Shown piece by piece: positions 139 through 5,935 of a DNA stretch of 5,935 nucleotides (positions are counted from its first letter, which is position 1; the number at the start of each line of letters is the position of its first letter). The notes under the pieces were generated by a model. That model was not told where the DNA came from and ran no database searches. It saw only the letters and a program-made list of their open reading frames with translations. The DNA is taken from positions 1 to 5,935 of the forward strand of contig QMMS01000282.1 in assembly GCA_003647375.1 (NCBI GenBank). The letters run 5' to 3'. A program made the translations under genes and the position numbers. This DNA is from Deltaproteobacteria bacterium (GTDB lineage Bacteria; Desulfobacterota; Desulfobacteria; Desulfobacterales; B30-G6).

Positions 139-1263
139 CTAAATAGGTTTCTTGATGGTATAAGAACCGTCCTTTTCAAAGACGGCTTCGGCTTCAAGAT
201 AGAAGACGTTTTTCAATTCCGGTCTGATATCCTGAACCATATAATAGGCTTCACCGCTTCTGGCGCCGGTAGAGCAGACAAAAACGACGGGTTTGTCCGA
301 CGGCAGGGAACTGATTTTCCCTTCGAGCTCATCCGTAGGAATATTAACAGCCGTTTTAAAACTTCCGGCGGCAAACTCATCCGGATCGCGAACATCGATC
401 AACATGATGCTTGCAGGGTTTTCCTTTATGATTTTTTCAAAGGCAGCAATAGCGATGGTACCCTCTTCTGCACCGGCTGTTACCTTGGCCGGCGCTGCTG
501 CTGCCATTTCCTTTTTCCATGCCGGGTATCCCGCGGCAAACACCATAACATCTTTGTAGCCTAGCTGAACCGCCTTCCTGGCGGATTTATGAGCCAGCTT
601 TCAGGTGTAGCCACCGCAGTAGAAAACCAGCGGTATACTTTTATCACCGGGAAGGTTGCCTTTCAACTCATCGAACTTGCTGTCGGGCATACTGATGGCG
701 CCGGGAATGTGACCTTTGTCATACTTGGGGCGCTTGGGTCGTGAATCGATAATCACAACATTGGCATTGGATTCGACCAGTTTTTTGACCACACTGATCT
801 CGACAGCATAGTAGTTGCCGGGGGCGCTTTTCCATACTGGGAATCCGTCTTCAAATACTTTGACGTTCTTGTAACCGAGTTTTTCTGCCTTCCAGGCAGA
901 TTTGTGACTCAGCTTTCAAGTGGGGCCCTGGCAATAGAAAATAAGCAAGGATTCCTTATTCTCCGGCAGACTGCTCAGCATGGTTTCGAACTTGCTGTCC
1001 GGGATGCTGACGGCGGAAGGAATGTAACCCTTGTCATATTTGGGACGCTTGGGCCTTGAATCGATGATCATCGTGTCGGCAGGCACCGGCACCTTGGCAT
1101 ACTGCTGAACAAATGCCACATCAACGATATCGTGAAATTTCCAGGAAGTGTCTTGCACAGTGCTTGCGGCTTCGGGTGCTTTGGGCGCCGAGGCGCAACC
1201 AAAACCCACCAGCAGCAGCGCTGCAAGAACAGACACCACCAACAATCTTTTTCTTACTGACAT
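139..1263 (-). CDS. Triple-rhodanese lipoprotein with two predicted selenocysteines (in-frame UGA)
   Basis: One frame of 374 codons is broken only by TGA at 916-918 (residue 116) and 601-603 (residue 221). An N-terminal signal (basic MSVRKR, hydrophobic 7-20, VGFGC with Cys23) suggests an exported lipoprotein, though the lipobox is not ideal. Three rhodanese domains follow: about 45-145, 155-250 and 262-374. Domains 1 and 2 share IDSRPKRPKYDKG (67-79, 172-184) and the loops C111-QGPT-U116 and C216-GGYT-U221, each followed by KL(S/A)HKSA. Domain 3 has the classical loop C330-STGA-R335. Protein similarity continues without a break across both TGAs (GYKNVKVFEDGFPVW and GYKDVMVFAAGYPAW follow them), and a hairpin lies 15-16 nt after each TGA. 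Rhodanese domains carry or transfer sulfur through a loop Cys; a Cys/Sec pair would allow a selenenylsulfide redox cycle (inference). The start is ATG at 1263, preceded by AAGGAGG, which overlaps the upstream stop codon. The alternative, a pseudogene with two stops, is much less likely. Confidence 0.9.
570..584 (-). promoter_or_regulatory. Bacterial SECIS-like hairpin for Sec221
   Basis: In the mRNA, a 5-bp stem CCGCC/GGCGG closes loop AGGAA, starting 16 nt after the UGA at 601-603. A possible outer helix is CUGGCU/AGCUAG with one G-U pair. Against the first hairpin, one stem pair has changed from U-A to C-G through two synonymous third-base changes (TCT to TCC, GCA to GCG). This supports selection on the RNA fold. 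Confidence 0.8.
884..900 (-). promoter_or_regulatory. Bacterial SECIS-like hairpin for Sec116
   Basis: In the mRNA, a perfect 6-bp stem UCUGCC/GGCAGA closes a 5-nt loop UGGAA, starting 15 nt after the UGA at 916-918. An outer helix GAGU/ACUC flanks it across an internal loop. Bacterial SECIS elements lie inside the coding region just after the UGA and carry a G in the apical loop, which SelB recognises. Position, size and loop G all fit. Confidence 0.8.
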
Positions 1264-1275
1264 GTGTAACCTCCT

Positions 1276-1620
1276 TTATTTACATTTTGCAGGTGTGGGC
1301 GAGTCAGAACCATGTTCATAAAGATAGGTGAAAATATCCACCAGATCCTTATCGCTGACGCTACTCCACTCTTCTTGACAACCAAATTCAGCAAACTCCT
1401 TCTTGTCGAAAATCTGCTCCCACTCGGCCTGAGTGTGAGCATCGGGATTTATAGTCGGTTTGGGTGAATCGACCTCACCCCTGGTCATGCAGGCCTTGTA
1501 GAGCTTTCTGTAAGTGTATTTTCCTTTACGTTTATTGCCCGTTTCCATGGCCAGACTTGTGCCCACAAAACACACAGACACCAGGATAGCCACCACAATT
1601 GATACGATTTTCTTTTTCAT
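1276..1620 (-). CDS. Secreted small protein, cytochrome-c-like but lacking a CxxCH haem motif
   Basis: The 114-residue product starts at ATG 1620, preceded by a G-rich Shine-Dalgarno-like run a few bases upstream; the open frame extends 10 codons further, but this start gives a clean signal peptide (MKKK, hydrophobic 5-20, likely cleavage after SLA at residue 24). The mature part is charged and has three cysteines (44, 81, 113). The sequence YRKLYKACMTRG aligns naturally with the haem site of small cytochromes c, but reads Y41-K-A-C44-M45 instead of C-x-x-C-H, so covalent haem c is not expected. The C-terminal pattern GCQEEW, DIFTYLYEH and DSPTPAKC resembles the distal helix of small monohaem cytochrome-like proteins, by my recollection of the family. 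Its stop lies 12 nt before the selenorhodanese start, so the two are probably co-transcribed and translationally coupled. It may be a periplasmic partner of the lipoprotein. Function unknown. Confidence 0.8.
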   Translation of the reverse strand: MKKKIVSIVVAILVSVCFVGTSLAMETGNKRKGKYTYRKLYKACMTRGEVDSPKPTINPDAHTQAEWEQIFDKKEFAEFGCQEEWSSVSDKDLVDIFTYLYEHGSDSPTPAKCK

Positions 1621-1688: not shown

Positions 1689-1704
1689 AGCAACCTGTAT
1701 GCCA
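1689..1704 (-). promoter_or_regulatory. Sigma-54 (-24/-12) promoter of the selenorhodanese operon
   Basis: Read on the minus strand, the site is TGGCATACAGGTTGCT, which fits TGGCAC-N5-TTGC(A/T) with the required 10 bases between GG and GC. Transcription would start near 1678, leaving a leader of about 58 nt before the ATG at 1620. The DNA just upstream (1705-1800) is very AT-rich, suitable for looping. Confidence 0.75.
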
Positions 1705-1919: not shown

Positions 1920-2246
1920 TTAGAAAACAACGTATCGGTAGCAATCCTGCAAAATCAAAGACAGCTCCTGGGGCGGAACAACTACGACGCCAGGCTGATG
2001 ACGATCGAAAGGTTTTACAGCATTCTGCTGTGCGGTAAGTGTGCACAGGGTCACCCGGGCCAAACGACACAGGCGCATGCATGCATCGGTTTTAATGAAC
2101 TCACATCCCGACCCCAACAGGTGAATCCTGACCTGTTTCTCCTGGCCCAATGCGGCATCAGCCAGTTTTTCAACAAAACCGAAATACCTGTTCGAGTTGA
2201 CGATGATACCCAGGGTTTTTCCGACGTCGGGGTTTACCACCAGCAA
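1920..2246 (-). CDS. DsrE-like small cytoplasmic protein (probable sulfur carrier)
   Basis: The product has up to 108 residues and no signal peptide or membrane segment. The start KTLGIIVNSNRYFGFVEKLADAAL followed by KQVRIHLLGSGCEFI is the alternating beta-alpha pattern of DsrE/DsrF-like folds: a first strand, a helix of the 'peptide of small molecule' type, then a strand with Gly. Cysteines are at 48, 56, 60, 68 and 102; Cys68 in VTLC is the best match to the sulfur-carrying Cys that follows the third strand in DsrE-family proteins. The frame overlaps the upstream gene by 13 nt. No ATG is available near the overlap: TTG at 2246, with GGG just upstream, or GTG at 2240 are the candidate starts. 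Translation is probably coupled to the gene before it. The family assignment rests on pattern recognition only. Confidence 0.7.
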   Translation of the reverse strand: MLVVNPDVGKTLGIIVNSNRYFGFVEKLADAALGQEKQVRIHLLGSGCEFIKTDACMRLCRLARVTLCTLTAQQNAVKPFDRHQPGVVVVPPQELSLILQDCYRYVVF

Positions 2247-2425
2247 ATAACCCGGTCATAGGCAAAGATGTCCTTCACCAGGTGAGACCAGTTGACCGCA
2301 GTGCCGGATACTTCATCCTGATAAAGACTCACCACAGCGATTTCATCCTCGGCAGCCGAGGCTTCGATTAACTTTGCAACGCTTTCATCCGGCTTGCATT
2401 TTAGAATGTGTAATACCTTTGCCAT
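2234..2425 (-). CDS. Small DsrH/TusB-like protein, 63 residues
   Basis: The product is short and cytoplasmic. It starts MAKVLHILKCKPDE, continues as a helix, then EDEIAVVSLYQDE, and ends FAYDRVICWW. The order LHIL, helix, hydrophobic strand ending in Y/L-Q-D resembles the start of DsrH/TusB proteins (usually about 95 residues), so this one is short for that family. Cys10 and Cys61 are the only cysteines. There is no clear Shine-Dalgarno before the ATG at 2425. It is the first gene of a two-gene unit: its stop lies inside the next coding sequence in another frame, and a sigma-54 promoter lies about 65 bp upstream. It could form a small heteromeric sulfur relay with its overlapping partner (inference). 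Confidence 0.65.
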   Translation of the reverse strand: MAKVLHILKCKPDESVAKLIEASAAEDEIAVVSLYQDEVSGTAVNWSHLVKDIFAYDRVICWW

Positions 2426-2627: not shown

Positions 2628-2639
2628 TCGGGAGTGCAA

Positions 2640-4022
2640 ATGGACATATCAAAATACTGGAAAACCATCGTCGACACCCTTCAGGATGGCGTCATGGTTG
2701 TGAACCCCGGCGGAAAAGTGTTGGCTGTAAACCCTGCCGCGGAGCAACTGACCGGTTACAAGGCAGATGAACTGATCGGCAGATCCTGTCGGGTACTGAA
2801 CTGTAACGGATGTGATATTTTCGGTAAAGGTGATGCGGAGAAATGGTGCGGCCTTTTCGCAAAAGGAAACGTCAAAGCCAAGAAGTGCCTGATCACAAAC
2901 AAGGACAAGCGATCGGTAAACGTCATAAAAAATGCTACCATTCTTTATGACGAAAACAAAATGATCATCGGCGCCGTCGAGACCCTGACCGACATGTCCG
3001 CCCTGGTATCACAGCAGTTTGAAATTTCACAACTGCGCAGAAGCCTGCATCTAGAAGAGGGATTTCACGGTTTGATCGGGAAATCACCTGTCATGCAAAA
3101 TCTCTTCGAACTCATTGAAAACGTTGCCCTGACAGAGGCCCCCGTGATTATCAGTGGCCCAAGCGGAACCGGTAAAGAACTGGTGGCCCGCGCCATTCAC
3201 GAGGCCAGCGATCGCAAACAAAATCCTTTTGTCAAAGTAAATTGTTCGGCTTTGAACGAAAACCTGCTGGAAAGTGAATTGTTCGGGCATGTTAGGGGCG
3301 CCTACTCGGGAGCGGAAAAAACTAGAATCGGTCGTTTTGAGGCCGCGCATGGCGGCACTATCTTTCTGGATGAAATAGGTGATATCAGTCCGACCATCCA
3401 GGTCAAGCTGTTGCGAACCCTGGAAGAGAAGGAGATCGAAAAGGTCGGTGATAACCATCCCATAAAGGTTGATGTAAGGATTCTCTCGGCAACCAACAAA
3501 GACCTGGAGTCGTTGGTCAACCAAGACCGGTTTCGGGATGACCTGTATTTCCGTATCAACGTGTTCCCCATCAACTGCCCGCCACTTAAGGAACATGTAG
3601 AGGATATTCCAAGCCTTGTTCAGAATTTTATCCGACTCAACAACCAAAAGAGCGGCAAAACAATTCTGGGCATGACACCGGAAGCCATCGAAAAAATTAC
3701 GGCTTACGAATGGCCTGGAAATGTTCGCGAACTGCGCAATGCCATCGAATATGCATTTGTTCTTTGTTCCAGTGGTGGAATCGGCGTCAATCATCTACCA
3801 CCGAAAATCGCCGGTACTTCACCGGAATGTGTCGAGCTTGGGGAAAAGATTAATTTTCCTGGAAGGGGAAATAATTCTGCGAAAAAGGCGGCTCTGATTA
3901 TGGCCCTTCGCCAGACTCGGGGCAACCGGTCCGAAACAGCCCGACTCCTGGGTGTAAGCCGGGTGACCGTCTGGAAACAGATCAAACGATTTAAAATCGA
4001 TCTACTCAAGGATCTATCATAA
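2640..4022 (+). CDS. Sigma-54-dependent transcriptional activator, PAS-AAA+-Fis HTH
   Basis: The 460-residue product activates RNA polymerase with sigma-54 by ATP-driven remodelling. An N-terminal PAS domain (about 5-120) contains a cysteine cluster, C50, C55, C58, C70 and C83, likely to bind a metal, a cofactor or a redox signal (inference). A short linker leads to the AAA+ domain (about 145-375): Walker A GPSGTGKE at 173-180, sigma-54 contact loop GAYSGA at 220-225 (usual form GAFTGA), Walker B IFLDE at 241-245, then FRDDLYFRINVF and WPGNVRELRN. The C-terminal Fis-type helix-turn-helix (NRSETARLLGVSRVTVWKQI, from 429) binds DNA. I chose ATG 2640 because GGGAG at 2630-2634 sits 5 nt before it; GTG 2634 overlaps that ribosome site. 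There is no receiver domain, so it is not a classical response regulator. It is divergent from the DsrE-like pair, and its probable targets are the two adjacent sigma-54 promoters. Confidence 0.95.
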   Translation: MDISKYWKTIVDTLQDGVMVVNPGGKVLAVNPAAEQLTGYKADELIGRSCRVLNCNGCDIFGKGDAEKWCGLFAKGNVKAKKCLITNKDKRSVNVIKNATILYDENKMIIGAVETLTDMSALVSQQFEISQLRRSLHLEEGFHGLIGKSPVMQNLFELIENVALTEAPVIISGPSGTGKELVARAIHEASDRKQNPFVKVNCSALNENLLESELFGHVRGAYSGAEKTRIGRFEAAHGGTIFLDEIGDISPTIQVKLLRTLEEKEIEKVGDNHPIKVDVRILSATNKDLESLVNQDRFRDDLYFRINVFPINCPPLKEHVEDIPSLVQNFIRLNNQKSGKTILGMTPEAIEKITAYEWPGNVRELRNAIEYAFVLCSSGGIGVNHLPPKIAGTSPECVELGEKINFPGRGNNSAKKAALIMALRQTRGNRSETARLLGVSRVTVWKQIKRFKIDLLKDLS

Positions 4023-4379: not shown

Positions 4380-4805
4380 TTAAGTCCTCCACGGATTGAT
4401 CAGTGGGACACCACTATGTTCCATATCGGAAATATTTCTAGTTACAATTGTCATTTTGTGGAAAATAGCCTGAGATGCAATCAGACTGTCAATCGCAGGT
4501 AAGGTCACCCCTTTTTTTTCGCAAGATCCAAGAACCTGCCCCCATACATGGGCTGTCCCAATCTCTATTTCAAGTATCCTCTCCTTGAATCGTTCCTGCA
4601 GTTCATTACTCAACCAGTTCTGTAATTGCTGTTTCTTCTTTCGGCCATCCGGCAATTTGGATATTCCTTTCTGTATTTCACCAATTGTGATTACGCTCAG
4701 GAAAAGGTTTTTTTCGTCTTGTGCACGAACCCATTGTACCACGCGAAGGTCCGGTTTGCTTTTCACCAATTCGGAAATCACACACGTATCCAGTAAATAA
4801 TTCAA
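4380..4805 (-). CDS. vapC: VapC-type PIN-domain toxin (ribonuclease)
   Basis: The 141-residue product has the length and layout of PIN-domain toxins, Mg-dependent RNases that cut tRNA or rRNA and are held inactive by a partner antitoxin. Acidic active-site residues are visible in order: D6 (YLLDTCVISE), E43 (TIGEIQKGI), D106 (PAIDSLIA) and D127 in TRNISD, so the fold looks catalytically intact. The start is TTG at 4803-4805, overlapping the antitoxin stop in the sequence TTGA, which implies coupled translation. The frame ends with NPWRT, a common PIN C-terminus. The antitoxin belongs to the Phd/YefM class rather than the AbrB-like or RHH class; such mixed pairs are well known. Confidence 0.93.
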   Translation of the reverse strand: MNYLLDTCVISELVKSKPDLRVVQWVRAQDEKNLFLSVITIGEIQKGISKLPDGRKKKQQLQNWLSNELQERFKERILEIEIGTAHVWGQVLGSCEKKGVTLPAIDSLIASQAIFHKMTIVTRNISDMEHSGVPLINPWRT

Positions 4806-5050
4806 ATCACCACCTCTCTGGCACTATCTTTTTGGCGCGATAGGTCCAGATCTTCGCCCCGAAATGGCGATTCTTGAAAAAAGTCTATGATATTTATTTT
4901 GGGCTTCACCAATCTCTGGTACTGTTCGACCGACATAATTACGACGGTTTTTTTACCGTGTCGGGTAACAATCTGCGGTCCATTCCGTAGAGCTTCGTTG
5001 ACAATTTCACTGAAACGGTTTTTTGCGTCTTGTAGCTGCCAATTTTCCAT
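4802..5050 (-). CDS. Phd/YefM-family antitoxin
   Basis: The 82-residue product starts MENWQLQDAKNRFSEIVNEAL, the hallmark N-terminus of Phd/YefM antitoxins (W-x-L-Q-x-AK-x-RFS-E). It continues with GPQIVTRHGKKTVVIMSVEQYQRL, which completes the DNA-binding dimer domain. The charged C-terminal tail (about 55-82), with NIIDFFQESPFRGEDLDL, would wrap the toxin. I chose ATG 5050, 8 nt after AGAGG; GTG 5059 and ATG 5056 lie too close to that site. It should neutralise the adjacent PIN toxin and repress its own promoter through the palindrome upstream. Confidence 0.93.
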   Translation of the reverse strand: MENWQLQDAKNRFSEIVNEALRNGPQIVTRHGKKTVVIMSVEQYQRLVKPKINIIDFFQESPFRGEDLDLSRQKDSAREVVI

Positions 5051-5072
5051 ATTCATCACCTCTCACAATAAA

Positions 5073-5235: not shown

Positions 5236-5935
5236 TTAGCGACTGAATTTAAATTCAAGAGATTGTTGCATCTGTGTAAAATCATGTAGAAAGATCAATT
5301 CCTGCCTTCTGAACCATTGGAGGTTCATAACAAACCGTACCTCTTTACGCGTTACCGATTGCCATCTGTTCATCTTAACCCAGACCCGACGTGCGTCATG
5401 GGGTTTATACCCGGTCCGTATCATCATTTTCTGGAATTTCCGCGGATTCTTCCATTTCTTCAGTTGCATGGATCTGAGACGACTGCGTATCCACCCGTCG
5501 AGATCCCTGAATAGCATTCGGAACTCCTGAATACGAAAATACCCAACCCAACCCCTTAAATACACGCTCAGTTCTTGGATGGCCTGGTACATGGACAATG
5601 GATTGTTCCTGCGGGTTAATTCCCTGACCTTGGTCTTGAATTTAAGACGGGCTTTATTGCTCACCCTGATCTTTTCCAGAAAGATTTGGAACCCAAGAAA
5701 CGGAACATCTTTAACCAATGCCACCTGACTCTTTTCCTTATTTACAGGAAGGTTTAGATTATTCTCCAGGTGACCGGTGATTCCTTCCATTACCCGCTTT
5801 GCAGCTCTTTCTGATTTTAACAAAATCAGAAAGTCGTCTGCCCAGCGGCAGTACCGATGGCCTCTTTTCTCCAGTTCCTGATCCAACTCGTTCAAGACAA
5901 TATTGGACAACATCGGTGAGAGCGGAGACCCTTGA
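5236..5935 (-). CDS. ltrA: Group II intron reverse transcriptase/maturase, C-terminal part (5' end off window)
   Basis: The visible 232 residues begin QGSPLSPMLSNIVLNELD (RT motif 4), then YCRWADDF (31-34 = WADD, catalytic site; YADD is usual), LPVNKEKS and FLGFQI. The maturase X/thumb region follows: YLRGWVGYFRIQEF, LDGWIRSRLR, KKWKNPRKF and TGYKPHDARRVW. The protein reverse-transcribes and helps splice its host intron. The reading frame is intact up to the window edge and ends at TAA 5236. No HNH endonuclease motif is seen after the maturase domain, so an endonuclease is absent or unrecognised. The downstream domain V/VI-like hairpins support a real intron rather than a DGR or retron RT. 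Trp in place of Tyr at the active site is uncommon. Confidence 0.93.
   Translation of the reverse strand, partial: QGSPLSPMLSNIVLNELDQELEKRGHRYCRWADDFLILLKSERAAKRVMEGITGHLENNLNLPVNKEKSQVALVKDVPFLGFQIFLEKIRVSNKARLKFKTKVRELTRRNNPLSMYQAIQELSVYLRGWVGYFRIQEFRMLFRDLDGWIRSRLRSMQLKKWKNPRKFQKMMIRTGYKPHDARRVWVKMNRWQSVTRKEVRFVMNLQWFRRQELIFLHDFTQMQQSLEFKFSR

Follow-up and report, generated by a model that had tools for sequence, protein, structure and literature searches.

The periplasmic rhodanese Sud of Wolinella succinogenes is a sulfur carrier that feeds a Psr-type enzyme, and it provided the working analogy for the present analysis. In Desulfurivibrio dismutans, a Psr operon that is strongly upregulated in sulfur disproportionation includes RS06465, a predicted lipoprotein with a signal peptide and three rhodanese domains (PMC12142623). 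Rhodaneses can also be selenoproteins. The table of a 2026 review gives five such forms, with the motifs UxxS, UxxG, CxU, UxxG and UxxxxU, the last being TsoB (PMC13188914), and a selenocysteine (Sec)-containing 'rhodanese-like domain' is mentioned without a motif for a marine deltaproteobacterium (PMC8318568). Here we describe a predicted triple-rhodanese selenoprotein gene with two in-frame TGA codons, located in a 5,935-nucleotide stretch of deltaproteobacterial DNA (contig QMMS01000282.1; hereafter the window).

A continuous frame with two TGA codons encodes three rhodanese domains

The gene and its principal features are as follows.

139..1263, minus strand: gene for a predicted exported triple-rhodanese selenoprotein, 374 codons, predicted Sec at 116 and 221, stop TAA at 141-139
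916..918, minus strand: TGA codon 116 (predicted Sec) in rhodanese domain 1, five residues past Cys111 (C-QGPT-U)
601..603, minus strand: TGA codon 221 (predicted Sec) in rhodanese domain 2, five residues past Cys216 (C-GGYT-U)
226..471, minus strand: third rhodanese domain, about codons 265-346 by eye, with an ordinary Cys330 loop (C-S-T-G-A-R-S)

When TGA is read as Sec in the in-window translation, the minus strand from 1263 to 139 is a single open frame of 374 codons plus TAA, in which in-frame TGA is confined to codons 116 (918-916) and 221 (603-601). A ribosome-binding-like GGAGG stands right before the ATG at 1263. Under translation table 11 the same interval falls into three ORFs (115, 63 and 135 aa), of which the second and third begin at internal GTG or ATG codons that make no sensible starts. 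The preliminary description had proposed just this, one triple-rhodanese frame hidden as three broken pieces of which the middle and last lack sensible starts, and the continuity of the frame bears it out; its 375 codons correspond to our 374 plus TAA, and the strand, which it did not give, is minus.

Searching the protein against Pfam yielded rhodanese alone (PF00581), at 152.7 bits against a gathering score of 22.2 and over three stretches. The active-site loops read C111-QGPT-U116-KLSHKSA in domain 1, C216-GGYT-U221-KLAHKSA in domain 2 and canonical C330-STGARS in domain 3, and the loop-opening Cys residues (C111, C216 and C330) are shared by all 121 proteins of the alignment, the window's among them. 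The window has two copies of the motif Y-C-x-G-x-x-UGA-K-L-x-H-[KN] and none arose in 200 shuffles, in agreement with the earlier claim that the TGAs occupy equivalent positions of two domains in a C-x4-UGA-K-L context. A predicted model of the protein had a mean pLDDT of 86.1 and a pTM of 0.65; rhodanese-family structures were among the matches listed when it was compared with solved structures, one domain matching 3o3w, for example, with an rmsd of 2.3.

The triple rhodanese is predicted to be exported, and a lipid anchor probably holds it to the cytoplasmic membrane from outside. The product had been called a lipoprotein, for which Cys at position 23 in 108 of the 121 aligned proteins speaks and against which stand the window residues at -3 to -1, G-F-G, a weak lipobox by the consensus; the assignment is thus plausible but not certain.

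Relatives carry Sec or Cys codons at both sites

A protein search gave 2687 matches, the best 120 of which were listed and aligned at both sites. Cys/Cys was found in 114 of these and Trp/Trp in six, with no mixed pairs; the nearest protein among the matches listed (P0002, 76%) is Cys/Cys. The six Trp/Trp entries are read as presumptive TGA genes called with code 4.

At the DNA level, the motif pattern with a literal TGA detected at least 19 loci in 17 genomes, a lower bound because the pattern is strict; by title all are deltaproteobacterial, Olavius worm symbionts among them. When 291 genomes of the order were searched in six frames, 62 gave matches. After removal of duplicates, of L002 (replaced by the fuller L025 from the same genome) and of three distant relatives, the set held 68 frames, the window's included, of which 39 are C/C, 16 U/U, 10 U/C, none C/U and 3 partial (65 with both sites seen). 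The 133 readable sites comprise 45 TGA and 88 TGC/TGT and no other codon. At site 116, 28 of 67 frames hold TGA and the other 39 Cys; at site 221, TGA accounts for 17 of 66 and Cys for 49, with the window counted at both. The frame nearest to the window (84% identity) comes from a Desulfobacterales MAG (L009). The three distant relatives (L082-L084, 39% identical) carry TGA only at site 1; their site 2 is Pro or Thr, and Cys216 is replaced by Ser. Together, 25 genomes with close Sec forms and three with the distant one-Sec form make 28 Sec-form genomes. That the Cys/Cys form is the commoner one (39 of 65 frames) indicates that the protein can fill its role without selenium.

The family was present in 15 of 395 genomes in a phylum-wide sample at E 1e-60; two of these matches (in G526 and G483) carry one TGA and one TAA each. 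No match was obtained among viral contigs with a near-identical motif pattern, or among phage records with the window protein at E 1e-20. L025 has a third in-frame TGA, aligned with Trp41 of the window protein (DTSUKFH), possibly a sequence error or the mark of a decaying copy.

Homologs thus align across both TGAs with U or C, as had been predicted (133 of 133 sites), other residues appearing only at site 2 of the three distant relatives; among close homologs we found neither of the outcomes named beforehand as counting against the idea, namely homologs ending at the TGA or unrelated residues there. The two-Sec fusion had also been called unusual. We found no record of the double form, but it is no one-off, given the 25 genomes with close Sec forms and the still commoner Cys/Cys orthologs.

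Comparison of the window with six relatives gave pN/pS values of 0.09-0.34 in each segment, before, between and after the TGAs, indicating that purifying selection continues past both; the unbroken protein similarity on either side, also part of the preliminary description, holds in the same comparison, as the relatives align straight through. For a tree, both sites were masked and frames with fewer than 300 aligned residues excluded, which left 64 proteins including two distant ones. It requires at least nine changes among the four labels, and three for U/U alone, two of them forced by well-supported branches. By this tree Sec and Cys appear to have been swapped several times, in one direction or the other.

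Each TGA is followed by a hairpin that goes with Sec

Bacterial SECIS elements are hairpins just past the UGA with a G in the apical loop. The window has one such candidate after each TGA.

884..900, minus strand: SECIS-like hairpin past codon 116, UCUGCC(UGGAA)GGCAGA, with base 22 after UGA the first of the loop
570..584, minus strand: SECIS-like hairpin past codon 221, CCGCC(AGGAA)GGCGG, with base 22 after UGA the first of the loop

The register past each TGA is fixed across relatives, with the loop starting 21-22 bases on. The complete five-pair core is present at 42 of 45 Sec sites and at 10 of the 87 Cys sites (Fisher p 3e-21, not to be taken literally as the sites are related by descent), which upholds the earlier claim of a separate hairpin for each TGA. 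By site, the core is complete at 27/28 Sec-116, 15/17 Sec-221, 10/39 Cys-116 and 0/48 Cys-221 sites, one Cys-221 site having been excluded as too short; within U/C genes it is complete in 9/10 at site 1 and 0/9 at site 2. Pair 17-29, which joins two third codon positions, is intact at 44 of 45 Sec versus 31 of 87 Cys sites and occurs at Sec sites as C-G, U-A, A-U and U-G, that is, as compensating synonymous changes. A G is found among the first two loop bases at 45/45 Sec and 40/87 Cys sites, counted without a loop-G filter; our first hairpin scoring had demanded an early loop G, so that the feature was built in, and the five-pair count used no such filter. Rfam at gathering scores gave no matches in the whole window.

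Ten Cys-116 genes retain the full core. In four of these, L031, L042, L049 and L060, the stem reaches 6-7 pairs without a shift of register. L031 and L042, whose SECIS-like hairpins are perfect, have the usual loop as well, and the tree groups both with a U/C pair (100/96); their hairpins would fit a recent Sec-to-Cys loss. The genome of L042 (G276) gave no selB or tRNA-Sec match, and that of L031 (G193) has selB but no matched tRNA-Sec.

Most Sec-form genomes encode the Sec machinery

Among the 28 genomes of Sec-form relatives, selA was detected in 26, selB above cut-off in 25 (14/17 and 11/11 in the two parts of the set), selD in 27 and tRNA-Sec in 26 (15/17 and 11/11). The 29 selD matches each hold one TGA. 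Gaps concern SelB above cut-off in three genomes, tRNA-Sec in two, selA in two and selD in one: one genome (G017) has selA alone above cut-off, its selB lying over two frames of 219.9 and 155.7 bits, and another (G004) has selB and selD only. The missing genes are taken as gaps in MAGs. Since 5 of 14 controls, one of them Caulobacter, also exceed the cut-off of the tRNA-Sec model, we relied on a score of at least 73 bits, reached by all 26. SelB is above cut-off in 32 of 37 Cys-only genomes as well and so does not separate Sec from Cys genomes. On one contig (C181 of G009, locus L089), selD (5895-6821) and the Sec rhodanese (1824-2897) occur together, and at L095 a gene of the same sequence cluster as that selD lies near the rhodanese.

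The gene lies in a conserved cluster with respiratory neighbors

The neighborhood sample comprised the window and the loci from L024 onward, each once, giving 60 close loci (21 Sec, including the window, and 39 Cys) and three distant ones; loci from the pattern scan that lie beyond the sample of the order (L001, L005, L007 and L016, for example) were left out of the count. The window itself stops 138 bases beyond the gene, and the octaheme and molybdoenzyme linkage is known from the relatives' loci. An octaheme cytochrome gene is directly downstream in 46 of the 60 close loci (11/21 Sec, 35/39 Cys), followed by cytochrome b561 in 28 of the 29 loci with enough flank. The octaheme product belongs to the tetrathionate-reductase family TIGR04315 (514.8 bits, cut-off 375).

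A second layout, seen whole or in its contig-visible part, runs octaheme cytochrome, small protein, PhsA-like, Fe-S, rhodanese, TorD. This layout, with an Fe-S/PhsA-type gene directly upstream of the rhodanese, occurs in 6 of 21 Sec loci and none of 39 Cys loci. The PhsA context is not strictly tied to Sec, as PhsA- and Fe-S-like genes also lie 2.9-3.9 kb upstream at L068, a Cys locus. The molybdoenzyme is PhsA-like only (560.4 bits against a PhsA cut-off of 694), and neighboring genes matched TtrB at 176.4 bits (cut-off 416) and thiosulfate reductase cytochrome b at 106.3 (cut-off 204). One Sec locus (L086) keeps the order of the second layout with transposase-like genes, by eye, between the Fe-S and rhodanese genes.

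In the octaheme cytochrome frame of L062, which starts near 7990, an in-frame TGA stands at the conserved INNF-C position; counted by hand, its counterpart in the solved chain 1sp3 is Cys64, an active-site Cys of the Shewanella enzyme. The octaheme tetrathionate-reductase family appears as a GenBank-annotated selenoprotein in the 2026 review (PMC13188914).

On the other side of the rhodanese gene, the window contains the following features.

1276..1620, minus strand: small protein whose start resembles a signal peptide by eye; listed ORF start 1650, better start 1620
1689..1704, minus strand: putative sigma-54-type promoter TGGCAT-ACAGG-TTGCT, preceding the genes for the small protein and the rhodanese
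1920..2246, minus strand: small ORF conserved in some relatives, one of which (at L102) gives a weak, sub-threshold DsrE-like signal
2234..2425, minus strand: ORF of 63 aa, also conserved in some relatives; it resembles TusB/DsrH by eye alone, and no family was found
2634..4022, plus strand: divergent regulator with PAS, sigma-54-activator (AAA+) and Fis-type HTH parts, adjoining the cluster in relatives

The small protein matched no family in Pfam or NCBIfam. A copy lies within 1.2 kb of the rhodanese gene in 48 of 60 close loci, and it is a candidate partner of the rhodanese. The divergent PAS/sigma-54 activator is present in 25 of the 37 close loci with enough flank. For the window, the promoter match alone is not beyond chance (13 of 200 shuffles reach the observed two matches with at most one mismatch). 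Across loci, TGGCAY-N5-TTGCW precedes the small gene in 24 of 53 and a looser pattern in 28 of 53, against 0.3 of 53 expected for the looser one from mononucleotide shuffles; the misses include second-layout loci and loci in which the small gene follows the rhodanese. The conserved cluster is probably sigma-54-driven. Farther out on the minus strand are a PIN-domain (VapC-like) and Phd/YefM-type antitoxin pair (4380-5059) and the C-terminal part of a group II intron reverse transcriptase/maturase (5236-5934), which runs off the window end.

A predicted two-Sec protein with a probable sulfur role

Taken as a whole, the data are best explained by a two-Sec selenoprotein with a linked role in sulfur metabolism, a reading that we hold with good confidence. 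Its parts differ in strength. Sec insertion at both TGAs is close to certain because the two sites hold only Sec or Cys codons, the hairpins are linked to TGA, purifying selection extends past the TGAs and relatives' genomes contain sel genes. A role in periplasmic sulfur respiration is likely, on account of the octaheme/b561 or PhsA-like neighbors, the sigma-54 site and the Psr-operon precedent. The exact role of selenium, in which a selenol at +5 would attack a Cys persulfide and free sulfide, is proposed tentatively.

In the mechanism that we propose, the hairpin past each of the two UGAs (116 and 221) would guide SelB and tRNA-Sec in placing Sec there, so that in either domain Sec closes the active-site loop opened by the catalytic Cys. 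This C-x4-U arrangement would constitute a redox pair. Cys111 and Cys216 would take up sulfane sulfur as persulfide, from polysulfide or from thiosulfate or tetrathionate products; the selenol of U116 or U221 would then attack the persulfide to yield sulfide and a Cys-Sec bond, which a periplasmic electron carrier could re-reduce. Domain 3, an ordinary Cys rhodanese, might load sulfur or pass it on. Partners would probably be the octaheme cytochrome with cytochrome b561, or the PhsA-like molybdoenzyme with its Fe-S subunit, and the divergent regulator would turn the cluster on through sigma-54. The triple rhodanese thus most likely carries sulfane sulfur, and reductively releases it, outside the cytoplasmic membrane. 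That selenium makes the two domains sulfane-sulfur reductases proper, with the Cys-Se bond recharged by the octaheme cytochrome or the PhsA-type enzyme, is a rather doubtful extension; if true, it would amount to a respiratory sulfur-reducing module built on a rhodanese.

The alternative that survives best also takes the protein for a genuine selenoprotein, one serving redox defense or selenium/tellurium oxyanion handling, in which disulfides or peroxides would be the substrates of C-x4-U as a thiol-selenol oxidoreductase. Most uncharacterized selenoproteins are considered very likely redox proteins in a review (PMC9312934), and the window protein does match NCBIfam ExtH, the rhodanese of selenite/tellurite operons, though weakly and far under the cut-off (20.9 bits versus 200). 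The sulfur-respiratory neighborhood of both Sec and Cys forms, together with the Psr-operon precedent (PMC12142623), makes this alternative improbable.

True stops, leaving a decayed gene or three separate short proteins, would agree with the three ORFs of table 11 and with the extra TGA of L025 at a conserved Trp position, yet TGA at both codons in 16 of 65 frames with the rest Sec/Cys or Cys/Cys, the pN/pS range after each TGA, the TGA-tied hairpins and the lack of sensible starts for fragments 2 and 3 make them scarcely credible. Reading of TGA as Trp or another ordinary residue, by a different code or near-cognate readthrough, would suit the W that gene callers put at both sites in 6 of the best 120 homologs, and is just as far-fetched in view of DNA frames with Cys or TGA but never Trp at both sites, a window frame limited to these two TGAs, and relatives' genomes with selA, selB, selD and tRNA-Sec.

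Comparison with known systems

Sud has a single small domain with one Cys and no known Sec, unlike the window protein. RS06465 of D. dismutans resembles the window protein, by description rather than sequence, in having three rhodanese domains and a place in a sulfur-reducing-enzyme operon; selenocysteine is not mentioned in the section on that operon (PMC12142623). The rhodanese-related (seleno)protein NF041203 (CxU, 'form 3' in PMC13188914) likewise keeps a Cys in its motif, but its profile has 126 positions and a different Sec spacing, and the window protein scored 77.3 bits against its cut-off of 115. The Cys/Cys orthologs (114 of the best 120 proteins; 39 frames) share the three domains and the same kind of neighborhood, and differ in having Cys at both +5 sites and mostly no hairpins.

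A Sec at this position is already known in TsoB (NF045694), a rhodanese/DsbD-fusion-like protein whose second Sec in UxxxxU aligns with U116 and U221 (FYU-AGL[TA]-U in six TsoB loci compared, versus FYC-GGYT-U in the window). TsoB places both Secs in one loop, one catalytic and one at +5, whereas the window protein has a catalytic Cys with Sec at +5 only, in two domains; TsoB also has a DsbD-like part and a thioredoxin-like end (by name and by eye), while the window protein is rhodanese alone in Pfam. The window protein reaches 105.8 bits against the NF045694 cut-off of 805. TsoB above cut-off occurs in 44 of the 291 genomes of the order, and all 46 matches hold two TGAs.

Our literature search returned no record of an exported triple rhodanese that keeps the catalytic Cys and repeats the C-x4-U pair. 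The worm-symbiont selenoproteome that Zhang and Gladyshev described in 2007 may include an ortholog of L014, so that earlier notice is possible. C-x4-U in two domains is not among the five rhodanese forms in the table of PMC13188914. The Sec position being already known from TsoB, the part for which we found no precedent in these sources is the kept catalytic Cys with a double C-x4-U pair. The protein thus adds to the known rhodaneses a predicted two-Sec C-x4-U form that standard gene calling fragments. Its U/U, U/C and C/C series, with no C/U in 65 frames, allows hairpin gain and loss to be tracked codon by codon in a protein that otherwise changes little. It would also link selenium to a conserved sulfur-respiration cluster in Desulfobacterales, where the benefit of Sec to a sulfurtransferase is testable with close Cys orthologs as controls.
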